64,000 nt of DNA from Caenorhabditis elegans. Taxonomy: Eukaryota; Nematoda; Chromadorea; Rhabditida; Rhabditidae. The translations under genes and the position numbers were made by a program. This document shows, piece by piece, positions 3,026 to 64,000 of this stretch. The stretch lies in assembly GCF_000002985.6 (NCBI RefSeq), contig NC_003279.8, forward strand, positions 10,540,001 to 10,604,000. The letters run 5' to 3'. The notes below the pieces were generated by a model. The model had not been told where the DNA came from. It saw only the letters and a program-made list of their open reading frames with translations, and searched no databases. Each line of letters begins with the position of its first letter. The stretch's first letter is position 1.

Positions 3026-6000
3026 ATGATGCAATCATATGACTATGATTCGGATGACTCACAAACAACATCAGATGAACATATTAATTCAAGACATTGT
3101 GAGTTTATTTAATACATAATACTCCCAACTAGAACTGCACAACACATCTGTTCTCCAACTCTTTAGTGCAGATCTCCGTTGTTTGGAACATTTCTCCAAC
3201 TTTCTAGAATGGTTGAATATTCCTTTTGTATTGTATTGTATATGCACCTTTAACGCTAGAAAAACAATTTTGATGAACTTTTCGCAGGAAGACATTTCTT
3301 TGATTTTTTTGTTGGAATATTTGAATTTGAATGCATTAAATTTAATATGTGGAGAAGAACAAAAATTTCAGCATCTCGATCAGACACAGCCTCATCATCA
3401 TCTTCATTCACTCCTCAAATAATATTTAATCCGAGACCACATGTCGTAAAAGTAGTGAAATCAGAAACGGGATTCGGTTTCAATGTTAAAGGACAAGTGA
3501 GCGAAGGAGGACAATTGAGAAGTTTAAATGGACAACTCTATGCACCATTACAACATGTGAGTGCAGTGCTTCGACGGGGTGCAGCTGATCAGGCGGGTCT
3601 TCGGAAGGGTGATCGGATATTGGAAGTGAATGGGCTGAATGTGGAAGGATCAACACATCGAAAAGTTGTCGATTTGATTAAAAATGGTGGTGATGAGTTG
3701 ACGATGATTGTGATTTCTGTGGAAGATCCTGACATGGATCGGTTTGATTATGGAGAAGAGAGTTCAATGGCATATGGACATGATTACTCGGAGAATCGAT
3801 CTTTACCAGTGACAATACCATCATATAATACAGTACAAGATTCGTTGGAAAGGTATACGGTAAGTCTACGATAATCCAGTTTTCAAACATTAAAACTAAA
3901 CTTGAACATTTAGGAAAATGTTATATTGAATTAAAAAATAACGTTAGCTCTTGTTGAAAGTTTTTTGAAATACCTGAAAATTTTTGACAAATTAACATTT
4001 GCCGAAAAAAAAACTTTACAAGCTCTTTATTAGATGAATATTATTTTCAGTTCTCCAAAATAATTTTAGAAGCATATTTGTTAATCAGGTATGTTTTTTT
4101 TTTTTGAAATAAAAATAATGTTCTTGATACCTTTCTGAAAAATTGGCAAATTATTTTCAAAACTAATTTGAAAAAAAATCTTTAAAATTATGAGGAAACA
4201 ATCTCAAGTCAGACAACAATTTCTCAAAAATTAAAATTTTAGAAATTTCACAATGTTTTTATACTAGTAGCCCAGGTCATTTTTAGCGCACATTTCCGCC
4301 CCCCACCACCTGAGCCTTGTGAATTTTTATTGTACCAACTCTCATCACTTCCAGGTGTTCAACATCCACATGGCTGGTCGTCAACTTGGTTCGCGTCGAT
4401 ACTCAGAGTTTGTGGAACTACACTTGGCACTGAAGAAACATTTTTACGACTATTGTTTCCCTCAGTTGCCTGGTAAATGGCCATTCAAACTATCGGAACA
4501 ACAGCTGGATTCACGAAGAAGAGGATTGGAACAATATCTCGAAAAGATTTGCACAATTCGAGTGATCGCTGAGTCGGAATTGGTACAAAAGTTTTTAATG
4601 GAGTGTGATCCAATGTGTGAAGTGGAAATTCGTTTGATGCTTCCTGATGGATCTCCAATTACAATCCGGACAAGAAGAAGTATTACATCATCATTGTTCT
4701 TCACATCAGCACAAAGAAGACTGAAAATGAGTAGAGAAGGAGCAGCAGCTTGTTCTATTTTTGAGCTTTTGGATAACTCTTTTGGTAGGTGGGAAACGTA
4801 TCATGGGAAAATGAAACAACTTTAAGATCTATTTTTGATTTTTACAAGAGACAAACTTTGATCTATTTTATAAAGATCCTGAAATTGGTCAAGGATTTAT
4901 TAAACCTTGAAACTCCTTCAATTCAAAGCAAACATTTATAAAACTTTGTCGAAAGCTTTAAAATTGCATAAACGAACGCAATTATAGGAGAAATGAAGCC
5001 TAAAGTTTGCCAAAAAATTGAAAAGGCATCTGAAAAACGTCAAATACAATTTCAATTTGCATTGTTTACAGAACGAAAAGTGAGTGAAAGTGAAAGTGTC
5101 CATGAGCTGTACACACATAATTATTCATCTGCATCATCCTCTTGCCTCCTTCTCCGAAAATTCATCTTCGATATTGATCGAGAACGAGCACTGTGCAAAC
5201 GAGACATGGTCTTCAAACAATTCTGTTTTGTGCAAGCAATTGCGGATTTACACAGCGGAAAAGTGGTGACATCAAGGAAAAGCTATCAGTTGAGAGCAAT
5301 ACAAAATGAGGAGAATATGGATGAGTTGTTGGAGATGGCACGGGAACTTGAAGGTTACAATCAGGTCACTTTTCCGCCAAGTGTGTGTATTTTGAGGAAA
5401 CGAAGACAAACTGTCATTATGGTTGTGAGGTTTGCAAATCTGTTGCTCAAGTGTCCAGAAGATGTAAGTTAAACTGAAAGAAAACAAATACCAAAAACCT
5501 TTTACAGGGAAACTCGATGGAAATCGATTGGAGTCGAATCAAAGACTTTCGAGTTTGTGATGAAGCCACCGCATTCTCATTTGAGTACATTAGAGATGAA
5601 GTTGGAGATAGTGAGCAAGAGCAAACGGAGCCACGGAAAACAAAATATGTTCGATTGGAAACTGGATTTGTGAGTTTTTTTTTTTGTTGAACTTAAATTT
5701 GAATTATTATTAAACCAGCTGTTTGATGCTGTCTCAAAATCAGCGCCAAGTTTTTCAAAAAAATTTGTAAAATGAAGTGGCAAAAAATTCTGAATTTACC
5801 TTTTTCAAAAATTGTTTGGACTAACTTTTTTATTATAATTTTAACCAGCAAAAGGTGATACGGTCGATCGGCGGCTAGATTAGACAGAAATCAAATCTTC
5901 ACAGTTTTCTTGTTTTCTAGAATTTTTTGATTTTCCGAATCAACTGTATTAACAATTCAATTAATTTCCAAGTTTCATAAAACTAATTTTCAGGCTGAGT

Positions 6001-25257: not shown

Positions 25258-25444
25258 GAGACCATACTATACAGAATCATTTCTGCAGTATGTATCTCGT
25301 AATTCCCATCAAATTGGTAGAGATGCCAACTGCGATGAAAGGGAGACGGGCAGGTCGCGAGCGTGAAGCAGTCCTCTAATGACTTGATGACCGCACGGAG
25401 CCAATGAATTTTGGAGCCGTAGTGGCCTGCTCTTCTGAGCAGTT
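25258..25444 (+). ncRNA. U3 small nucleolar RNA
   Basis: U3 guides early 18S rRNA processing as part of the SSU processome. The 5' part (25259-25297) matches the U3 A'/A box region, including AGACCATACTATACAG and ATCATTTCTGCAGTATGT, and can fold into a 5' hairpin. Box B is GAGCGTGAAG at 25359-25368. Box C is TTGATGACCG at 25384-25393. Box D is CTGA at 25435-25438, inside a terminal hairpin CTGCTC-TTCT-GAGCAG. The order A, B, C, D, the spacing and the total length of about 187 nt fit U3. The exact ends are estimated. It has its own upstream promoter-like block and lies in a 2-kb gap with no protein gene, so it is not intron-encoded. Confidence 0.85.
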
Positions 25445-50812: not shown

Positions 50813-53800
50813 ATGGCTGTAAAAAAGAATAAGAATGTGCCAAAACAGGAGGATCCATTGGTTCAGAAAGACGAAATTTCGTCGATTCATGCTAGAATTA
50901 AGGTGATTTTTTTTGTACTTATTTAATTTCTTAAAAATCAAATTACAGATTTTCGAGACACCGTTCGCCACTCAAGTTCTCAATCCAAAAGTGAGCGAAT
51001 TCTGTGCAAACTGTCTTCGTGGTCCTGCTCCAGGAGAGAAGCTTCTTCGTTGTGGTGGATGTAATTTCTCAATGTATTGTAGTAAAGAGTGTCAGGCAAC
51101 TGCCTGGTTAGTTCATAAACCAGAATGCAAAAGACTGAAAGCTGTGGGTTTCTAACTAAAAATTGGAATTAATATTAAATTTGAGAGCTTCCCAAATCTT
51201 CCACTCACTGAAGTTTTGTTCCTTTCAAAAGTTATCGATCGTATTCAGTTTTTGGAGAAAAATGGAGATAAATTGGGAATTGAGGCAGAGAGGAAATTCT
51301 CGAGTTTGGTTGACCATAAGGTTGATATCAGGTGAGAATAATTGAAAAACTGGTGAATAGGATCTTTCAAGAGTCAAAAATCAACGATTATGTCAATTTA
51401 ATTAGATTTTGTCGCGACTTTTCGTATCTTTTCAGTATAAATTTTTCTAGAGCACGAAAACATACCAATTTACTAAACGCTAACGCGAAACGCGAAATAG
51501 AACAAAAATCAGAATACTTTTAACGAATTTTTCAGCAAAATTGGAATTTTAACTATTTGTTTAGATGGTATTCTTCTAATATTCGATTAAAAAAATAAAT
51601 GTTCTTACTTTTGTTCATGCTTGTTACAAATAAAAGCCAAAATGAATTATGAAAAATCATGAAAATACGAAAAATCGCTAGGAATCTAAAATATTAACTA
51701 ATAGTTAATTGTCCGAGAGGAGTACACGCGCGAGTGCACTGGAGCACTCATTTGCGCGCGAAATTCAAATTAGATTAACGCGGAGGTCGATTTTCAGCTT
51801 TTCGAAGCCATGGAATAGGCGTTTTAAGATATTTGAAAAATATCAAAAACACAATTTTAGAGACGACGAGGAGAAGATGGCTCATTTTGAGAAAATCTTC
51901 GAGAAAATGGGAGCCTTCCGAGGAGAGGAAATGATTGAAAAAGGCGAATTCTTCGATGTATTCTGTAAGGCTACAATCAATTCTCACAGTATTCACACAA
52001 ATGCTGGAAATGAAGTCGGAATGGCTCTTGATTTGGGTGTTTCAAAGTATAATCATTCATGTCGTCCAACATGTTCAATGGTTTTTGATGGATATCGTGT
52101 ATGTCTTCGACCACTGGTTCCAGGTGTTGATGCTGAAAATACTGAAGAAGCATTCATTTCGTATATTGATGTGGGAAGAAGCAAGTATATTCGAAGAAGA
52201 GATTTAAATTCAAGATGGTATTTTAATTGTGAATGTACAAGATGTATGGATCCAGAAGATGATGCATTGACAGCTATTCGATGTGCAAATCCGGCTTGTG
52301 ATGCTCCAATTGTTAGTTTTTTTTTCAAAATCTAAACGCTTTTGCAGGAAATTCAAATGTTCAATTCGATCGGTCGATCTAGTGTTACAATTTTCTGAAA
52401 CGTATACTTAGAGTACTGTAGCTGAACAGTTTCGCTCGTCACGAGACCCGAGCCCTTTGAATTGGCAACAAAACTTGCTCTAGAACTTAATTCATTTTCT
52501 GAAGAATCAAAGCGAAATTCCAGCTAACATCTGAAACTGAAGAACCAATGAACATTGCTTGTGAAAAATGCAAAACGATTGTCGAAGAGGATACTGTAAA
52601 AGCAGCTCAAGAATACATGAAAACCCTTCCAGCATCATTTGATCCAAAGTGTCCAGCAGAAATTGTAAGTTTTCTTTGATTATTATAACAATGTACTGTA
52701 ATCTTTGTAACTTTCTGAAAAGTAAAGGCGCAAGAATTTATTAGGATAGGCCTCGCCACGAAGAACTGTTTATGGTAGCACGCGGTGGGACCCATACATA
52801 TATAGTTTAATAAAGCCTTTGCAATATTTTAATTTTTAAGCAAGTTTTCAAATGATTAGCTTTGGTTTAAATTGAAATATTAATATGTAGAGTTCTGAAT
52901 AAAATAGACAAAACTCTCGGTAAATGATAAATCCCAATTCAGGAAGCTCTTCCAGGCAAGGTTTGTTTATTATATTCAAAGGCGTGTGTTCTCCTCGGAC
53001 ACTCCTTCCCTGCTTTTCCCTACGATTTCTCTCCCCTCCACAATTTCCCCATCTTCCTCTCCGACATTATTATCCATCACTATTTTTCGTTCTCCTCTAC
53101 GCTTCAAATATCCTCGGTTCCCAGAAAGTTTTCGTCGCATCGGTGGTTCAGTGGTAGAATGCTCGCCTGCCACGCGGGCGGCCCGGGTTCGATTCCCGGT
53201 CGATGCAATTCTTTTTCGTTTTTTACCCTAGAGCACATTCATTCCAAAACCCCCCAGCTTCTCATAGGGCTCCAGTAAACTTTTTTAATTTTGACTTTTT
53301 AGCTCAAAGAACTCCTTGCAAAAGCCGAACAAATACTGCATCCATCAAATGTCTACGTGGCAAGACTCAGAACCGCATTATTCCACGTCACAGGAACTCT
53401 TACGATGGATAATCTATCCTCAATGCATACACAAATCTACAACAACTATAAAATGTGTTTCCCGAAAGCAGATCGACACGTTGGATTCCAACTTCTTCAT
53501 ATTGTAAAAGCATTAATTGAAAAAGACGAGAGAGATGAAGCCATGCCATACGCATTTGATGCTATGAATATTTTCGAAGTTTGCTTTGGATTAGACCATC
53601 CATATTACCTTCAAACTCTTGCATTGTGGACTTATTTAGAGAAAAAGGTATTTAAAATTTTTTTAATTAAGAGTTTTTGCATTAAAAATCAAAAAAATTC
53701 AGATTCCAAAATCAACCGAAGAACTCGTTCAACTCACAAATTTCTCCGATAATCGTCCAATTGATATTGTGAGCCTCCTGAAAAGAGCCAACATGCTTCC

Positions 53801-58709: not shown

Positions 58710-61700
58710 ATGGAACAAGAATCTGGCGGAAAAAAGTCCAATGAACAGCTTTTATCTGAACGAGAAGCCATCATGAGGCAACTTGCGATGCTAGGATCAG
58801 GTAGGGGTTTGGAATCGATTTTACAATATTTTAAACGTGAAATTCAATTAAAACTCTTACAGAATTGTTTTAAAATACAAAAAGAAGCCAATGGTTTTAT
58901 CTCTGAATAAAATATGAAATTTCAGGCCCTGAAGATCTAGACGTCGATGATGAAGAAGAGGATGAAGAGGAGGAAGTAGAAAAAATGGAAGAAGGAGTTG
59001 AAGAGACAATGGAAAATGCTTCCGTTGTAAAAGAAACAACACCAGTGAAAGATGAGAATATTGTTGAAGATTCTAATTCATCTGAAGAACTATTTCCATA
59101 TTTGGACTCTCCACCAGAAGATAAAATACAAGAAATTTCGGCTAATGATACCGAAATCGATCAAATTGATAGTCCAATCCGTTTTGAAGGCGTCAAAAGT
59201 GAGTTTTTCAAACAAACCGAATAATCGGAAACTTTTTTTCAGATCCTGCACAGAAAATGGATGTCGATGGAGAAGAAGGAACATCTACTGATGCTCGTCC
59301 AGTTTCAGGAAGTTCTGGAAGCAGTGTCGGTGAACAAATTCGGGCTCCAGTTCCAGTGTTAGATATTTTTGAGACATAAAAAAATATTTTCAATCCTATT
59401 TTTTCAGTTTAAAAACTATCATGGATCGAATCGATTTAGATAAAAGTAATCCACTGCCAGAAGGATGGACAGTTATTTCTCATCAAAGTGGAATGCCAGT
59501 TTATTATGTGAGATTATTTATTTCGATTTAAAACTAATAAATAATATTTATTCAGCACAAGTTCACTCGTGTCGTCACTCACTCGAAACCGTATCTCGTC
59601 GAAGGAATTGTTCGTGATCATGAGATTCCAGTATCCTCAATCCCTTGTCTATACAAAAAGATTATGGATGAGCTGGTACGGTTGAATTACTGATAAAAAT
59701 GAAGGTTTTTTTCTGAAATTATCGAACAAAAAAGAAGTGTAAAAATTTTGTTCAGATTTCATAAAATTCACCCTAATATTACGAAAAATTGCAATGTCTG
59801 AATTATTTCCAAATTTCTATTCAAAATTATAACGAAAAAAATGCATAATAAATAGATAAGTAATATTTTTAATTAATTTTCTCTAGATTTTTAAAACATT
59901 TGCCATAAAACTGAAATTGTTTTTTGCGCCAGTGATTCGAAATCTTTCTTTAAAAACATATTTCTCAGATATGAAGATTTGCGATTGTTGTCCCAAAAAT
60001 ACGGTAGTGGGTCTTAAAGCGACATTTTTGTTAACTCGTAAAGTCGTGCGCCTTTAAAGAGTACTGTAATTCAATTTCTGTGAAATTCTCAGAGTTTTTC
60101 CATTAAAATCAATTCAAATCCAATGATAAAATCACTTAACTTTTAATCAAAACTAGTGAAAATTACGAAAAAACGATAAAATTGATTTGAAATTCATGGA
60201 AAATAAAATATTTATACTTTAAAACAAGTTCTAAAATTTGCAAACTTTCAGCACGAAAACGTGGAAAAACAATCTTCAAAGTGTCCGATGACGTATGAAG
60301 AAAGTCAAAGTATGCTGGAAGTGAGTTCTAATTTCCAGAATTTAATTTTAAAATATATTCCAGAAACTTTTTAATAATAATTGAAATAGTATTATTCACT
60401 ATCGCTGTTCCTGCTATATTCAACTCTTCATCATCTTATAACAGCCAAAAAGTATTCAAACTGATCACTTTTATCGGTTCCGGTCCCTCTGCAAAAAAGT
60501 GGACTGGAAGCATTTAAGTGATAGTGTTTGATCAGTTTATGGCGAAATATTAACAAAAAAATTTTAAGAAAAAAGGGTGTTTGGACAGGTTTCTATTTAG
60601 ATTCCCGTCAAGGAGCTTCGAATGTCACCGGATCGATATCAGAAATATTGCGAAAAGAGGTTCAAATTCAAGCAAATTACGGTTAGTTTATATTTAAAAC
60701 AGTATTTAAAAAAAAGAAATTAAAAATCGAATCGAATAACTATAAAAAATCTCTTTGGAGTTTCTGTGAATTTTCAGTGAAAACTTTACGATTTTAATTC
60801 GTTATAGATTTGATTTAAAAATAAAATGAATTAACTATTTATAACAAAAAAGGAAAAAGAACTTGCGGTGGACTTTTTTGGTCAATAATTCAAACATCTT
60901 CCCAAAAGTGGTAATTATCAAGATTATTACAACCAAAGCCATAAACCAACGTCAACACGGAAATTCTTTTACAGCCATAGGAGAATATGATCAAAAATAT
61001 AATTTTGTCATAGAAAATTGCATTTTTCTACCGTTTTTTATGCAAAAAAAGGAGAATAATTCAAACTTAATTTAAATTTTTAAATTATTTCCAATGAAAA
61101 TCTACATCACAAAAAAAAAGGAAAAAAGAATTTGCGGTGGACGGGATTCGAACCCGCGCTCTGTTACCAGAATAGGATCGGGAGTCCTACGCCTTGACCG
61201 CTCGGCCACCACCGCGCGGATTCTGAAAAATAGTAATTAATTGAAATCTAGAACGCTTGGCGGATATTGATAGATTTACAGTTTATAGTGTTTCTAGTAA
61301 AATAGTGAAGAATAAATATAACTTCAGAGTTAAGAATATAGTTAAAATATATATATATATATATTGTTAATTAAATTGAAATTATTCTTGTTATAGAAAA
61401 AATAAGATTTGGTTCAATGAAATGGTTCTTTTAAAATTAAAATCAAGAATTTCAGTCCCGTTTTCTAAAAAAAACTAAACTACAAAACAGAATAAATATG
61501 ATTAGTTTCATGAACATGAATAACAAATTTAATGTTTTGAAAAAGAAAAATCTGCCTAAAAATTGACAAAATTAAAAATATTTATTACGAATTCTGTTTT
61601 TTTTTCTTTTTATCTAACCAATATTAAATTCAGAAATAGATTAGAGCTTTGAAATATAAAAATTTAAATTAAAAACAAGAATAATTTCAATTTAATTAAC

Positions 61701-63601
61701 AATATATATATATATATATTTTAACTATATTCTTAACTCTGAAGTTATATTTATTCTTCACTATTTTACTAGAAATACTATAAATTACAAATGTATCAAT
61801 ATCCCACAAGCTTTCTAGATTTCAATTAATTGCTATTTTTCAGAATCCGCGCGGTGGTGGCCGAGCGGTCAAGGCGTAGGACTCCCGATCCTATTCTGGT
61901 AACAGAGCGCGGGTTCGAATCCCGTCCACCGCAAATTCTTTTTTCCTTTTTTTTGTGATGTAGATTTTTATTGGAAATAATTTAAAAATTTAAATTAAGT
62001 TTGAATTATCCTCCTTTTTTACATAGAAATCGGTAGAAAAAATAAAATTTCTATTATAAAATTACATTATTGCTCGTCTTCTCCTATGGCTGTAAAAGAA
62101 TTTCCGTGTTGACGTTGGTTTATGGCTTTGGTTGTAATAATCTTGATAATTGCCACTTTTGGGAAGATATTTGAACTATTAACCAAAAACGTCCACCGCA
62201 AGTTCTTTTTCCTTTTTTGTTATAAATAGTTTCCCACTTTTGGGAAGATATTTGAATTATTGACCGAATAATTTTGATAAATGTAGCGGCATATACTTGA
62301 TTTTAAAAGTCATTCACAAAAAAAGGAGAAAAGAATTTGCTGTGGACGAGATTCGAAAAAAAAAAGACGATTCAGAAATTTATTTTCTTAAAGAACTGAA
62401 ATTCTATGGTGCTGTTTGACAACTTTTTAAAAAATATTTTTAAAAAAATCAGATTTGAAGAGAAATTCGAAATGAAATTTGAAAGGCCTTCAGGTTTTGA
62501 AAGAAATGCGGAACGAAATAAAAAAGTTGAGAAATTGAACATCGAAAAACGAAATTTTGCGAGTTAAAAAATCGAAAAAAAAATGTTAAAAATTAACAAT
62601 AAAATTCAATTCTTGATCGGATTTTGTACATGAAGAAAAAAAACATGACAAAATATTTGAAAGTCTTCAAAAAAAGGACCAACAAATTGAGCTGTTATTT
62701 TTTTGAAAAATTGTAAAACTAAAATTATTTGATTTATTTTGAAAATCGAAAAATCGAAATACTTGTAGCGTAAAATCACTCATGCAGTGCTAAAATGCCC
62801 AAATATCGTAGTACAACTTTTGAAAATTCTTTAAAATTTGGTTATTTACAATTAAACATGTGAAATTGCACAGTTTTTCCCACATAATTTTTTAAAAAAA
62901 TTTTGATTTCAATGATTTTGGCGAACTTTCATAAATTTAACTTGAATTTTAAACAATCTGAACCATTTGTTTATGATATTTGATCATTTTAGACTATTAT
63001 GAGTGCATTTAGCATATTAAAATTGTGTTTCAATTCGAAAAATAATATATTTTCAATTTCAGGTGCATCGATACATAAATCCAGCTGAAAAAGAAGGTGT
63101 TGTTCTGAAAAAAAGAATGAATACAATTCTGAAAAAGCGAGGATTCGATGCAGATTATGATCAATTGAAAAAGAATAATAAACCTGGAGATGTACTACTT
63201 TCATCATCAACTGGAGCAATTCTTATTGATTTAACACCATGTCCAACGAATATAAATAAGCGAAGTGGATCTAAAAAACCATATTTATTAAATCCTATGG
63301 TAAAAAATTAAAATTTGTAGTTTCTCAGAAACCTGATTCATTTTCAATTTCCAGGGAAAAACCACTGTCGCTGTATTGAACGAATTTGTGCAGCGACTTG
63401 CAAAAGGGACACTTTTGTATGAAATTGAAGATACTCGTAATATTCATTGCCCGTACAAAGCAACTGCTCTTCTTACAATGAAAATGTGCACACTCCGTGA
63501 AATGGCTGGTCAATGTAAAGAAAGTCTTGTGGTTCTTAGTGAGATTGCAGCGAATGATGAGAACAGTACGACGTATTCACAAGGTCTTCTGCCTGATTTG
63601 A
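58710..63601 (+). CDS. pash-1: PASH-1 (DGCR8/Pasha), partial at right edge
   Basis: Double-stranded RNA-binding partner of Drosha in the Microprocessor, nuclear. Exons seen: 58710-58800, 58926-59198, 59243-59357, 59408-59507, 59556-59675, 60252-60320, 60601-60681, 63063-63299, 63355-63601, then running off the window. The N-terminus has an acidic stretch (DVDDEEEDEEEEVEK). A WW-like segment in exons 4-5 (LPEGWTVISHQSGMPVYY) leads into SSIPCLYKK; the IPC cysteine matches the haem-ligand cysteine of DGCR8. Exon 9 starts the first dsRBD (GKTTVAVLNEFVQRL). The 60682-63062 intron holds the tRNA-bearing inverted repeat. The C-terminal domains lie outside. Confidence 0.93.
59985..60070. repeat. Dispersed repeat copy in pash-1 intron
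   Basis: AAAAATACGGTAGTGGGTCT, then TGCGCCTTTAAAGAGTACTG with a TAATT end. The arrangement matches the other copies in the window. Confidence 0.6.
61133..61215 (-). tRNA. nev-tRNA-Gly(CCC), V-arm type, left copy
   Basis: 83 nt on the minus strand, identical to the copy at 61851-61933. Acceptor stem GCGGTGG / CCACCGC, D-stem GCC / GGC, anticodon stem TAGGA / TCCTA with loop CTCCCGA, giving anticodon CCC. The 15-nt variable region contains a hairpin TCTG-GTAA-CAGA. T-loop TTCGAAT, discriminator A. The long variable arm and A73 are tRNA-Leu-like, but the anticodon is for glycine GGG. A T6 terminator follows (AATTCTTTTTT on the minus strand). Confidence 0.95.
61851..61933 (+). tRNA. nev-tRNA-Gly(CCC), V-arm type, right copy
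   Basis: 83 nt, all stems intact and identical to the left copy in opposite orientation, head to head with the 5' ends facing each other about 635 bp apart. T-rich terminator at 61938-61943. The body has the leucine-type long variable arm and A73 with a CCC anticodon. The family is the nematode-specific V-arm tRNAs, reported in C. elegans to be aminoacylated with leucine. Confidence 0.95.
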
Positions 63602-63778
63602 GTGAGTATTTTATTTACTTGGATAGAAATTTTATTTGGAAAAAAGTAAAATTTTCAAATTATTTGGTCTATTTGAAGTTTTCCTAATAGTTTTAAAAAA
63701 ATTAAATATGCCAGAAGAAAATCCTACTTTTTGAATTTATAAATTAAATTTTTAAATGTTGATATTAAAAGTTAATCA

Positions 63779-64000
63779 CAAAAAAAAAGGAAAAAAAGAA
63801 TTTGCGGTGGACGGGAAGGTGGGTGGGTGGAAAACAGAAAAAAACCGATACATTTACCAAAACCCTCGATAAGTCTTCGGTCAATAATTCAAATATCTTC
63901 CCAAAAGTGGCAATTATTAGAAAAAAACATAACGACCAAAGCCATAAAACAACGACAACACGGAAATTCTTTTACAACCATAGGAGAAGACGAGCAATAA
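63779..64000. repeat. Third, tRNA-less copy of the arm sequence
   Basis: AGGAAAAAAAGAATTTGCGG, continuing TGGACGGG, matches the flank and 3' end of the tRNA at 61118-61145, but the tRNA body is absent and replaced by GGTGGGTGG. Downstream, GGTCAATAATTCAAATATCT and ACACGGAAATTCTTTTACA match the outer arm at 60889-60975. It reaches the window edge. Confidence 0.75.

Follow-up and report, generated by a model that had tools for sequence, protein, structure and literature searches.

Why does an intron of the DGCR8/Pasha gene pash-1 of Caenorhabditis elegans carry, head to head, two identical tRNA genes with the long variable arm of a leucine tRNA and the anticodon of a glycine tRNA? The question touches the puzzle of the nev-tRNAs, which have been published as wrongly charged, matured, exported and conserved, yet whose mistranslation is unseen. 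We analysed the locus within a window of 64,000 nucleotides, together with related sequences elsewhere in the genome.

Two class II tRNA genes with a CCC anticodon

A preliminary description had proposed two identical 83-nt tRNA genes with anticodon CCC, paired stems, a V-arm and A73, and this was borne out. ARAGORN called tRNA-Gly(ccc) for T1 (61133–61215, minus strand) and for T2 (61851–61933, plus strand), and the Rfam model RF00005 scored each at 63.0 bits (cut-off 29, E 2.7e-11). The two genes are identical at 83/83 positions and are of class II with A73. In the pairing analysis, for which seven nev-type bodies were segmented by hand, T1 and T2 showed 7/7 pairs in the acceptor stem, 5/5 in the anticodon stem, 5/5 in the T stem and a V-arm stem of 5 bp; the three D-stem pairs tested were all paired, giving a cloverleaf without mismatches. 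The anticodon loop has 7 nt, with U33 and G37. Putative internal promoter boxes, read against the consensus, lie in T2 at 61858–61869 (A box, TGGCCGAGCGGT) and 61912–61922 (B box, GGTTCGAATCC), both on the plus strand. T runs that are likely Pol III terminators stand directly 3' of T2 (61939–61944, plus strand) and of T1 (61122–61127, minus strand, an A run on the plus strand).

These genes do not match the canonical tRNA-Gly class (class I, about 71 nt, without V-arm), which is represented in the window by the 71-nt tRNA-Gly(gcc) that ARAGORN placed at 53137–53207, the contrast drawn beforehand. Among canonical tRNAs, compared as one example each of nine types that did not include tRNA-Ser, the Gly(CCC) body was closest to Leu(CAG) (53/84), against 44/84 for Ile(AAT) and 38/83 for Gly(GCC). 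A73 is a mark of tRNA-Leu as against tRNA-Ser. With the canonical tRNA-Leu genes (CAG, AAG, TAG) the two genes share class II structure and the long V-arm; the V-arm letters and the anticodon differ. A V-arm with its own stem, an anticodon outside the Leu and Ser sets, an intact cloverleaf and Leu-like features together characterize nev-tRNAs, the nematode-specific V-arm tRNAs of which Hamashima reportedly gave an earlier account in 2012. In all probability T1 and T2 are the nev-tRNA-Gly(CCC) genes already published for C. elegans, as had been suspected, and the tRNA itself was known: the one treated in PMC4300185 has the same anticodon, long V-arm, Leu-like body, A73 and species.

According to the passages of PMC4300185 on its biochemistry, this tRNA is charged in vitro with leucine alone and can be used on ribosomes in a cell-free system; its RNA, detected by RT-PCR, is weakly expressed, CCA-tailed and cytoplasmic. 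The same passages report no Gly-to-Leu peptide, whether in the whole proteome or in a purified reporter whose coding sequence has 12 GGG codons, and the authors leave low-frequency events possible. As to the taxonomic range of nev-tRNAs, PMC4033280 in its relevant part lists 8 nematode species. The proposal that GGG is misread as Leu thus holds for charging and ribosomal use in vitro and not for the proteome or the reporter, so that the recoding claim is weaker than first implied and the initial interpretation is, overall, partly supported.

Palindromes and further copies in two pash-1 introns

The translations of the exons, once joined, match DGCR8 (E 1.2e-16 for the whole match), and a second, weak stretch of that alignment (12.2 bits) crosses the splice of the intron that holds T1 and T2. 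This places the pair, as expected, in a 2381-nt pash-1 intron (intron A, 60682–63062, plus strand), whose GT...AG ends were set by eye and across which the frame is kept. Two exons follow, at 63063–63299 (237 nt) and 63355–63601 (247 nt), with ends likewise set by eye on the plus strand, and intron B then starts at 63602, reaches the end of the window at 64000 and continues to C1:10604913. An intronic position is ordinary for the species: PMC4999229, in the part that deals with such genes, counts 44% of 609 C. elegans tRNA genes as intronic and finds, as a statistical rule, lower Pol III occupancy on them. Like those genes, T1 and T2 lie within an intron of a protein-coding gene; pash-1 differs in having two palindromic pairs across two introns.

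The head-to-head arrangement within an inverted repeat of about 1.4 kb was confirmed. The inner left arm (61112–61392, 281 nt) is 97% complementary to the inner right arm (61674–61954), and the outer left arm (60833–61083, 251 nt) is 86% complementary to the outer right arm (61981–62231). Three relics of tRNA 3' ends accompany them: a short copy at 60865–60873 (minus strand, repeat families D1 and D2) beside the outer left arm, a 3' end with trailer at 62190–62221 (plus strand, family D4) at the outer right arm, and a partial 3' end with trailer at 62318–62357 (minus strand), 93% complementary to 61914–61953 (pair I5). The fold predicted for 60833–62231 has an energy of −855.8 kcal/mol, compared with −252.5 ± 11.9 for 20 dinucleotide shuffles. 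In this predicted hairpin, 536 of the 560 left-arm bases pair across and the sense tRNA is paired over its full 83 bases with its antisense counterpart, in line with the hairpin that had been anticipated. We take the modelled hairpin in the pash-1 pre-mRNA to be a by-product until otherwise demonstrated.

Intron B holds a second palindrome, absent from the preliminary description. It consists of T3, full-length like T1 and T2 and lying 2.2 kb farther downstream (C1:10604134-10604216, minus strand), and T4, a fourth copy without tRNA nucleotides 1–20 (C1:10604407-10604469, plus strand). The three full copies agree at 83/83 positions and T4 at 63/63; each of the three full copies reaches 63 bits, has all its stems complete and is followed by a T run. 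Outside the bodies the copies are mosaic in identity. From −60 to +103, T1 equals T3, whereas T2 differs upstream; from +160 to +240, T2, T3 and T4 agree at 79–80 of 80 positions and T1 differs (65–66/80); from +240 to +320, T1 goes with T2 (78/80) as against T3 with T4 (79/80). This mosaic indicates conversion among the copies and thereby upholds the suggestion that gene conversion keeps them identical.

Relative to the passages of PMC4300185 cited above, the T3/T4 palindrome with its mosaic, the shared upstream element and the anticodon-loop lesions reported below are added here; palindromes and element are undescribed in those passages, and the words 'inverted' and 'pash' are absent from the main text of the paper.

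An upstream element common to the nev-type genes found

Sequence comparison revealed the element TTCAGAATC at −12 to −4 of both genes (T1, 61219–61227, minus strand; T2, 61839–61847, plus strand), and the motif TTCAGAAYC occurs at this position in common among the nev-type genes found in the genome. As an unbiased test, a genome search for TTCAGAAYC followed by 10 nt and an A box, which covers this one fixed spacing, returned 11 matches, all 11 of nev type, against 1 for the reversed control. With up to 2 mismatches there were 41 matches against 15 for the reversed control. Eleven of them are the known nev-type loci, one is a twelfth class II tRNA (L110) carrying the element with one mismatch, and the other 29 are known from their printed letters alone. 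In this genome a single search with the exact pattern returns nev-type genes only, which makes the motif a handle on the family; it is also a candidate promoter.

In 49 other distinct tRNA genes the best match to TTCAGAAYC had at least 3 mismatches, and among them the element was found in 0 of the 24 distinct tRNA-Leu genes. The remainder comprised 15 Lys, 7 Ile, 1 Ala and 1 Gly gene, together with one Leu-like gene whose anticodon is unclear; 25 of the 49 are at least 80 nt long and 24 are shorter. These upstream regions are a convenience sample rather than a random one, and the motif itself separated them from the 8 upstream regions that carry it. For the whole set, tRNAs were merged when their last 30 upstream and first 20 body bases were equal, and those with fewer than 30 upstream bases were excluded. 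A genome-wide RF00005 census covered 63 of 8106 candidates and hence gives no denominator.

The element is kept although the nev-type bodies are only 64–85% alike. Upstream of the Gly and Ile types the sequences can be aligned over about 33 bases if gaps are allowed, and the copies of Arg and Lys type, which lie 2.9 kb from each other, have an identity of 0.69 from −36 to −20, so that their likeness exceeds the element. Given both resemblances, the independent lineages number four at most, and shared ancestry may partly explain the motif. The Arg, Lys and Pro types were found by queries that included upstream sequence, a design that could miss nev-type genes lacking the element. A close parallel is nev-tRNA-Ile(UAU), with a body identical to the Gly type at 62/83 positions and with class II structure, A73 and the upstream element, all as in the Gly(CCC) genes. 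An inverted arrangement is again seen among its four intact copies: two of them (C1:9562353+ / 9563843-) face each other tail to tail at a distance of 1.4 kb, with 154-nt arms that are 96% complementary.

Judged from its position, TTCAGAAYC may be the site at which Pol III starts, providing family-specific initiation. Two other roles were considered and rejected. In reverse complement the motif imperfectly resembles the B box, which suggested pairing of the leader with the T arm; yet in folds of five precursors, each starting at −12, the nine bases stayed unpaired. A reading of TTTTTCAG as a splice acceptor agrees with neither the AAYC part nor the antisense copies. The 14-mer YATTTTTCAGAATC occurs 46 times in the genome (reversed control, 2), 8 of them at nev genes, and many of the other 38 may be splice sites.

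Anticodon loops and possible roles

We favour, at a probability of about 80%, the reading that the pash-1 copies, three of them full and T4 truncated, represent Pol III genes for nev-tRNA-Gly(CCC). The anticodon of a leucine-type class II tRNA would have drifted to CCC, and the copies would have arisen by local inverted duplication and then been homogenised by conversion. TTCAGAAYC, at the presumed Pol III start, would set an initiation particular to the family, and a low tRNA level, aided by intronic placement, would prevent harmful misreading of GGG by the Leu-charged tRNA.

A different emphasis comes from the relatives. Counting against the favoured reading, bodies of the Lys and Pro types are no closer to Leu(CAG) than to tRNA-Ile(AAT): 46/86 with each for the Lys type, and 51/89 with Ile(AAT) and 51/88 with Leu(CAG) for the Pro type. 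The anticodon loop is abnormal in four of the seven distinct nev-type bodies, although the stems are intact. These loop lesions fit a single nematode family of leucylatable, tRNA-shaped molecules, marked by TTCAGAAYC as a private cis-element and kept for a role other than decoding, an idea we put forward tentatively and consider less likely than not. The acceptor, D, V and T arms would then be what is kept, the anticodon loop could vary freely, the anticodons (CCC, UAU, CCU, CUU or none) would be by-products, and the element would give the family its own Pol III start or regulator. Possible roles include a leucine-loaded reserve, a LeuRS sensor and a source of leucine outside the ribosome. If selection does bypass decoding, as the lesions suggest it may, the negative proteomics would be explained.

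The palindromes might instead act on pash-1, either through pairing inside introns A and B or from one to the other, with skipping or circularisation of the two exons, or as a substrate of ADAR, Drosha or Dicer with feedback on the Microprocessor. On the far side of the two exons, intron B has a segment (C1:10603929-10604321) with 96% complementarity to a 393-nt stretch of intron A (61746–62138), which is the arrangement looked for in a circRNA locus. Complementarity of flanking introns promotes back-splicing and skipping in C. elegans, according to the pertinent part of PMC8330042; loss of both exons (484 nt, given bounds set by eye) would shift the frame, and the hairpin of intron A is predicted to be very stable. 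Against this, the predicted fold favours hairpins within each intron, with T1–T2 paired at 83/83 and T4–T3 at 63/63 bases, as compared with 38 pairs between introns A and B. Term searches of the literature, papers under T22A3.5 excluded, yielded no report of Microprocessor binding, editing or siRNAs at this hairpin; pash-1 was not named among the matches listed, including the ADAR papers. We regard such an action as unlikely; the paired copies in two introns nevertheless form a compact natural case for the effects of tRNA palindromes on host splicing and editing.

Functional mistranslation, in which the tRNA would insert Leu at GGG in some tissue or stress, draws on the charging, cell-free use, CCA tail and cytoplasmic location given in those passages of PMC4300185, and on the normal loop of the CCC body. 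The absence of Gly-to-Leu peptides from proteome and reporter in the same source, and the four abnormal loops out of seven, make it quite improbable. We doubt even more strongly that the copies are inert pseudogenes, intact through recent duplication and conversion alone. Conversion may account for identical bodies, and other family members do have broken loops, but all three full copies keep high scores, complete stems and T runs, TTCAGAAYC is retained across diverged bodies, and the RT-PCR part of PMC4300185 describes mature, CCA-bearing tRNA. That a mobile element derived from a tRNA, either a SINE or a palindromic MITE, landed in pash-1 by chance is already disfavoured and barely credible: despite the inverted symmetry and the decayed tRNA 3' ends near the locus, the 279-nt flank is not dispersed as such an element would be, five of its six genome matches lying at pash-1 and the sixth being a weak 75% match on C5 (L089) in which ARAGORN found no tRNA, and what the other nev-type genes have in common is the tRNA body with a few upstream bases (up to about 33 between the Gly and Ile types), the flanks farther out being at background identity.

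Palindromic pairs of tRNA-Gly(CCC) genes in two pash-1 introns

The tRNA genes T1 (61133-61215, minus strand, antisense to pash-1) and T2 (61851-61933, plus strand, sense to pash-1) are real and of a kind already known, very probably the nematode class II nev-tRNA-Gly(CCC). As proposed in the preliminary description, their 83-nt sequences are identical, with anticodon CCC, paired stems, a V-arm with its own 5-bp stem and A at base 73; a T run lies directly 3' of each gene. The ordinary tRNA-Gly(GCC) cited there for comparison was also confirmed (71 nt, 53137-53207, plus strand); it does not carry the upstream element described below. A U3 snoRNA gene is present at 25258-25443 on the plus strand (RF00012, 102.8 bits).

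The host gene is Pasha/DGCR8: its exons, joined and translated, align with DGCR8 chains (E 1.1e-15 and E 1.2e-16), and we take the name pash-1 from this homology. T1 and T2 occupy intron A (60682-63062, ends read by eye), and the DGCR8 alignment has a second, weak segment that crosses the splice of this intron. They are arranged head to head within an inverted repeat that has inner arms of 281 nt (97%) and outer arms of 251 nt (86%), and the stability of its fold exceeds that of 20 shuffles by about 50 standard deviations. Both this repeat and the pre-mRNA hairpin uniting a sense and an antisense tRNA had been anticipated; in the predicted fold all bases of the sense copy (83/83) pair with the antisense copy.

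The next tRNA-bearing intron, intron B (C1:10603602-10604913), holds, just beyond the end of the window (C1:10540001-10604000), an identical third gene, T3 (C1:10604134-10604216, minus strand), and T4 (C1:10604407-10604469, plus strand), a copy without tRNA nucleotides 1-20. Together they form a second palindrome with arms of 366 nt (99%). Two exons (63063-63299 and 63355-63601) separate the introns, and across both of them the first palindrome has a 393-nt arm with 96% complementarity to the second. Remnants of tRNA 3' ends, several in number and decayed, surround this locus. Five of the six genome matches of the flank fall here as well, meaning that the flank is not a dispersed sequence. To the known tRNA kind the analysis adds the two palindromic pairs and the shared upstream element; no description of them was found in the accessible portions of the literature searched, outside which Hamashima 2012 falls.

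History of the copies and possible effect on pash-1

Comparison of the flanks gave a mosaic. T1 equals T3 from -60 to +103; from +160 to +240, T2, T3 and T4 match at 79-80/80 while T1 diverges (65-66/80); and from +240 to +320 the closest pairs are T1/T2 (78/80) and T3/T4 (79/80), with 69-72/80 between the two pairs. Since no single tree fits all three stretches, conversion or template switching among T1-T4 probably took place, and the earlier proposal of gene conversion is supported at that strength.

In the predicted fold from intron A to intron B, within-intron hairpins are favoured. Only 38 pairs form between the introns, so that looping-out of the two exons would be possible, though without an energetic preference for it. 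According to PMC8330042, complementary matches in C. elegans introns promote back-splicing and skipping. In PMC4999229, introns are reported to hold 44% of 609 C. elegans tRNA genes, and these intronic genes have a lower Pol III occupancy, lowest on the host-gene strand. Papers naming T22A3.5 aside, literature term searches found no work on the tRNA-bearing pash-1 intron, and the word pash-1 was absent among the related papers as listed.

The nev-type family and its upstream element

DNA and motif searches of 100,286,401 bases on 7 contigs, which do not amount to a full census, yielded 11 nev-type loci and one further relative, L110. The loci comprise three of Gly(CCC) type and four of Ile(UAU) type, together with a further Ile-type copy whose anticodon loop is shortened; C3 carries an Arg(CCU)-like and a Lys(CUU)-like gene, and C4 a single Pro(UGG)-like gene. 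Two Ile(UAU) genes (L011:4353-4437, plus strand, and 5843-5927, minus strand; C1:9562353 and 9563843) form an inverted pair with arms of 154 nt (96%), and the copy with the shortened loop lies 3.6 kb from it. The class II Arg(CCU) and Lys(CUU) genes, on segments L079 and L087, are 2.9 kb apart (C3:6724126-6727088). Outside the family, we observed an inverted tRNA-Leu(AAG) pair (C2:2860349, plus strand, and 2861561, minus strand) 1.2 kb apart; pairs of this kind may be common across the genome.

Among nine tRNA types compared, one example each and no tRNA-Ser, the Gly and Arg bodies are closest to Leu(CAG); the Ile body is equally close to Leu(CAG) and to a Leu-like variant, the Lys-type body to Leu types and to Ile(AAT), and the Pro-type body to Leu(CAG) and to Ile(AAT). 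L110 (C1:8781120-8781290, minus strand, 46.1 bits) is a class II tRNA with TTCAGAATG at -12. It is possibly a twelfth member; its base 73 is G, unlike the remaining nev-type genes, and it may not belong.

In 11/11 nev-type genes the element TTCAGAAYC occupies precisely positions -12 to -4 relative to the mature 5' end. In ungapped comparison of the Gly, Ile, Arg, Lys and Pro types its identity is 0.89-1.00 over nine bases, against 0.20-0.42 at -100 to -60 and 0.64-0.85 in the tRNA bodies. It was not found in 49 other distinct tRNA genes compared (at least 3 mismatches each). A pattern made of the element, a 10-base spacer and an A box has 11 matches in the genome, all nev-type (reversed pattern, 1). 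A slightly longer pattern with up to 2 mismatches gave 41 matches (reversed control, 15). Of the 12 assessed, 11 are the known nev-type loci and one is L110, a further class II tRNA with one element mismatch. As about 33 upstream bases of the Gly and Ile types align once gaps are allowed, some of the similarity may reflect shared descent. The position of the element fits the Pol III start region, from which we infer a start function. Pairing of the leader with the tRNA was tested by folding and none was seen.

Anticodon loops and decoding

The preliminary description held that GGG could be misread as Leu. Published proteomics gave no support for this: according to PMC4300185, no Gly-to-Leu peptide was detected in the proteome or in a GFP-LacZ protein containing 12 GGG codons, and GGG is decoded by canonical tRNA-Gly(UCC). 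We then compared seven distinct nev-type bodies, L110 included. The acceptor stem, T stem, three D-stem pairs and V stem are complete in 7/7, and the Arg type has one anticodon-stem mismatch (1/7). Only the Gly, Ile and Arg bodies (3/7) have a 7-nt anticodon loop with U33; the Lys type of the L079/L087 pair has A in place of U at position 33, and the loops of the Ile variant, Pro type and L110 measure 5, 11 and 6 nt. Each of these four odd-loop bodies was found a single time and may be a young pseudogene. The loop pattern and the negative proteomics together suggest that the nev-type family may not be maintained by decoding, a hypothesis drawn from small numbers.
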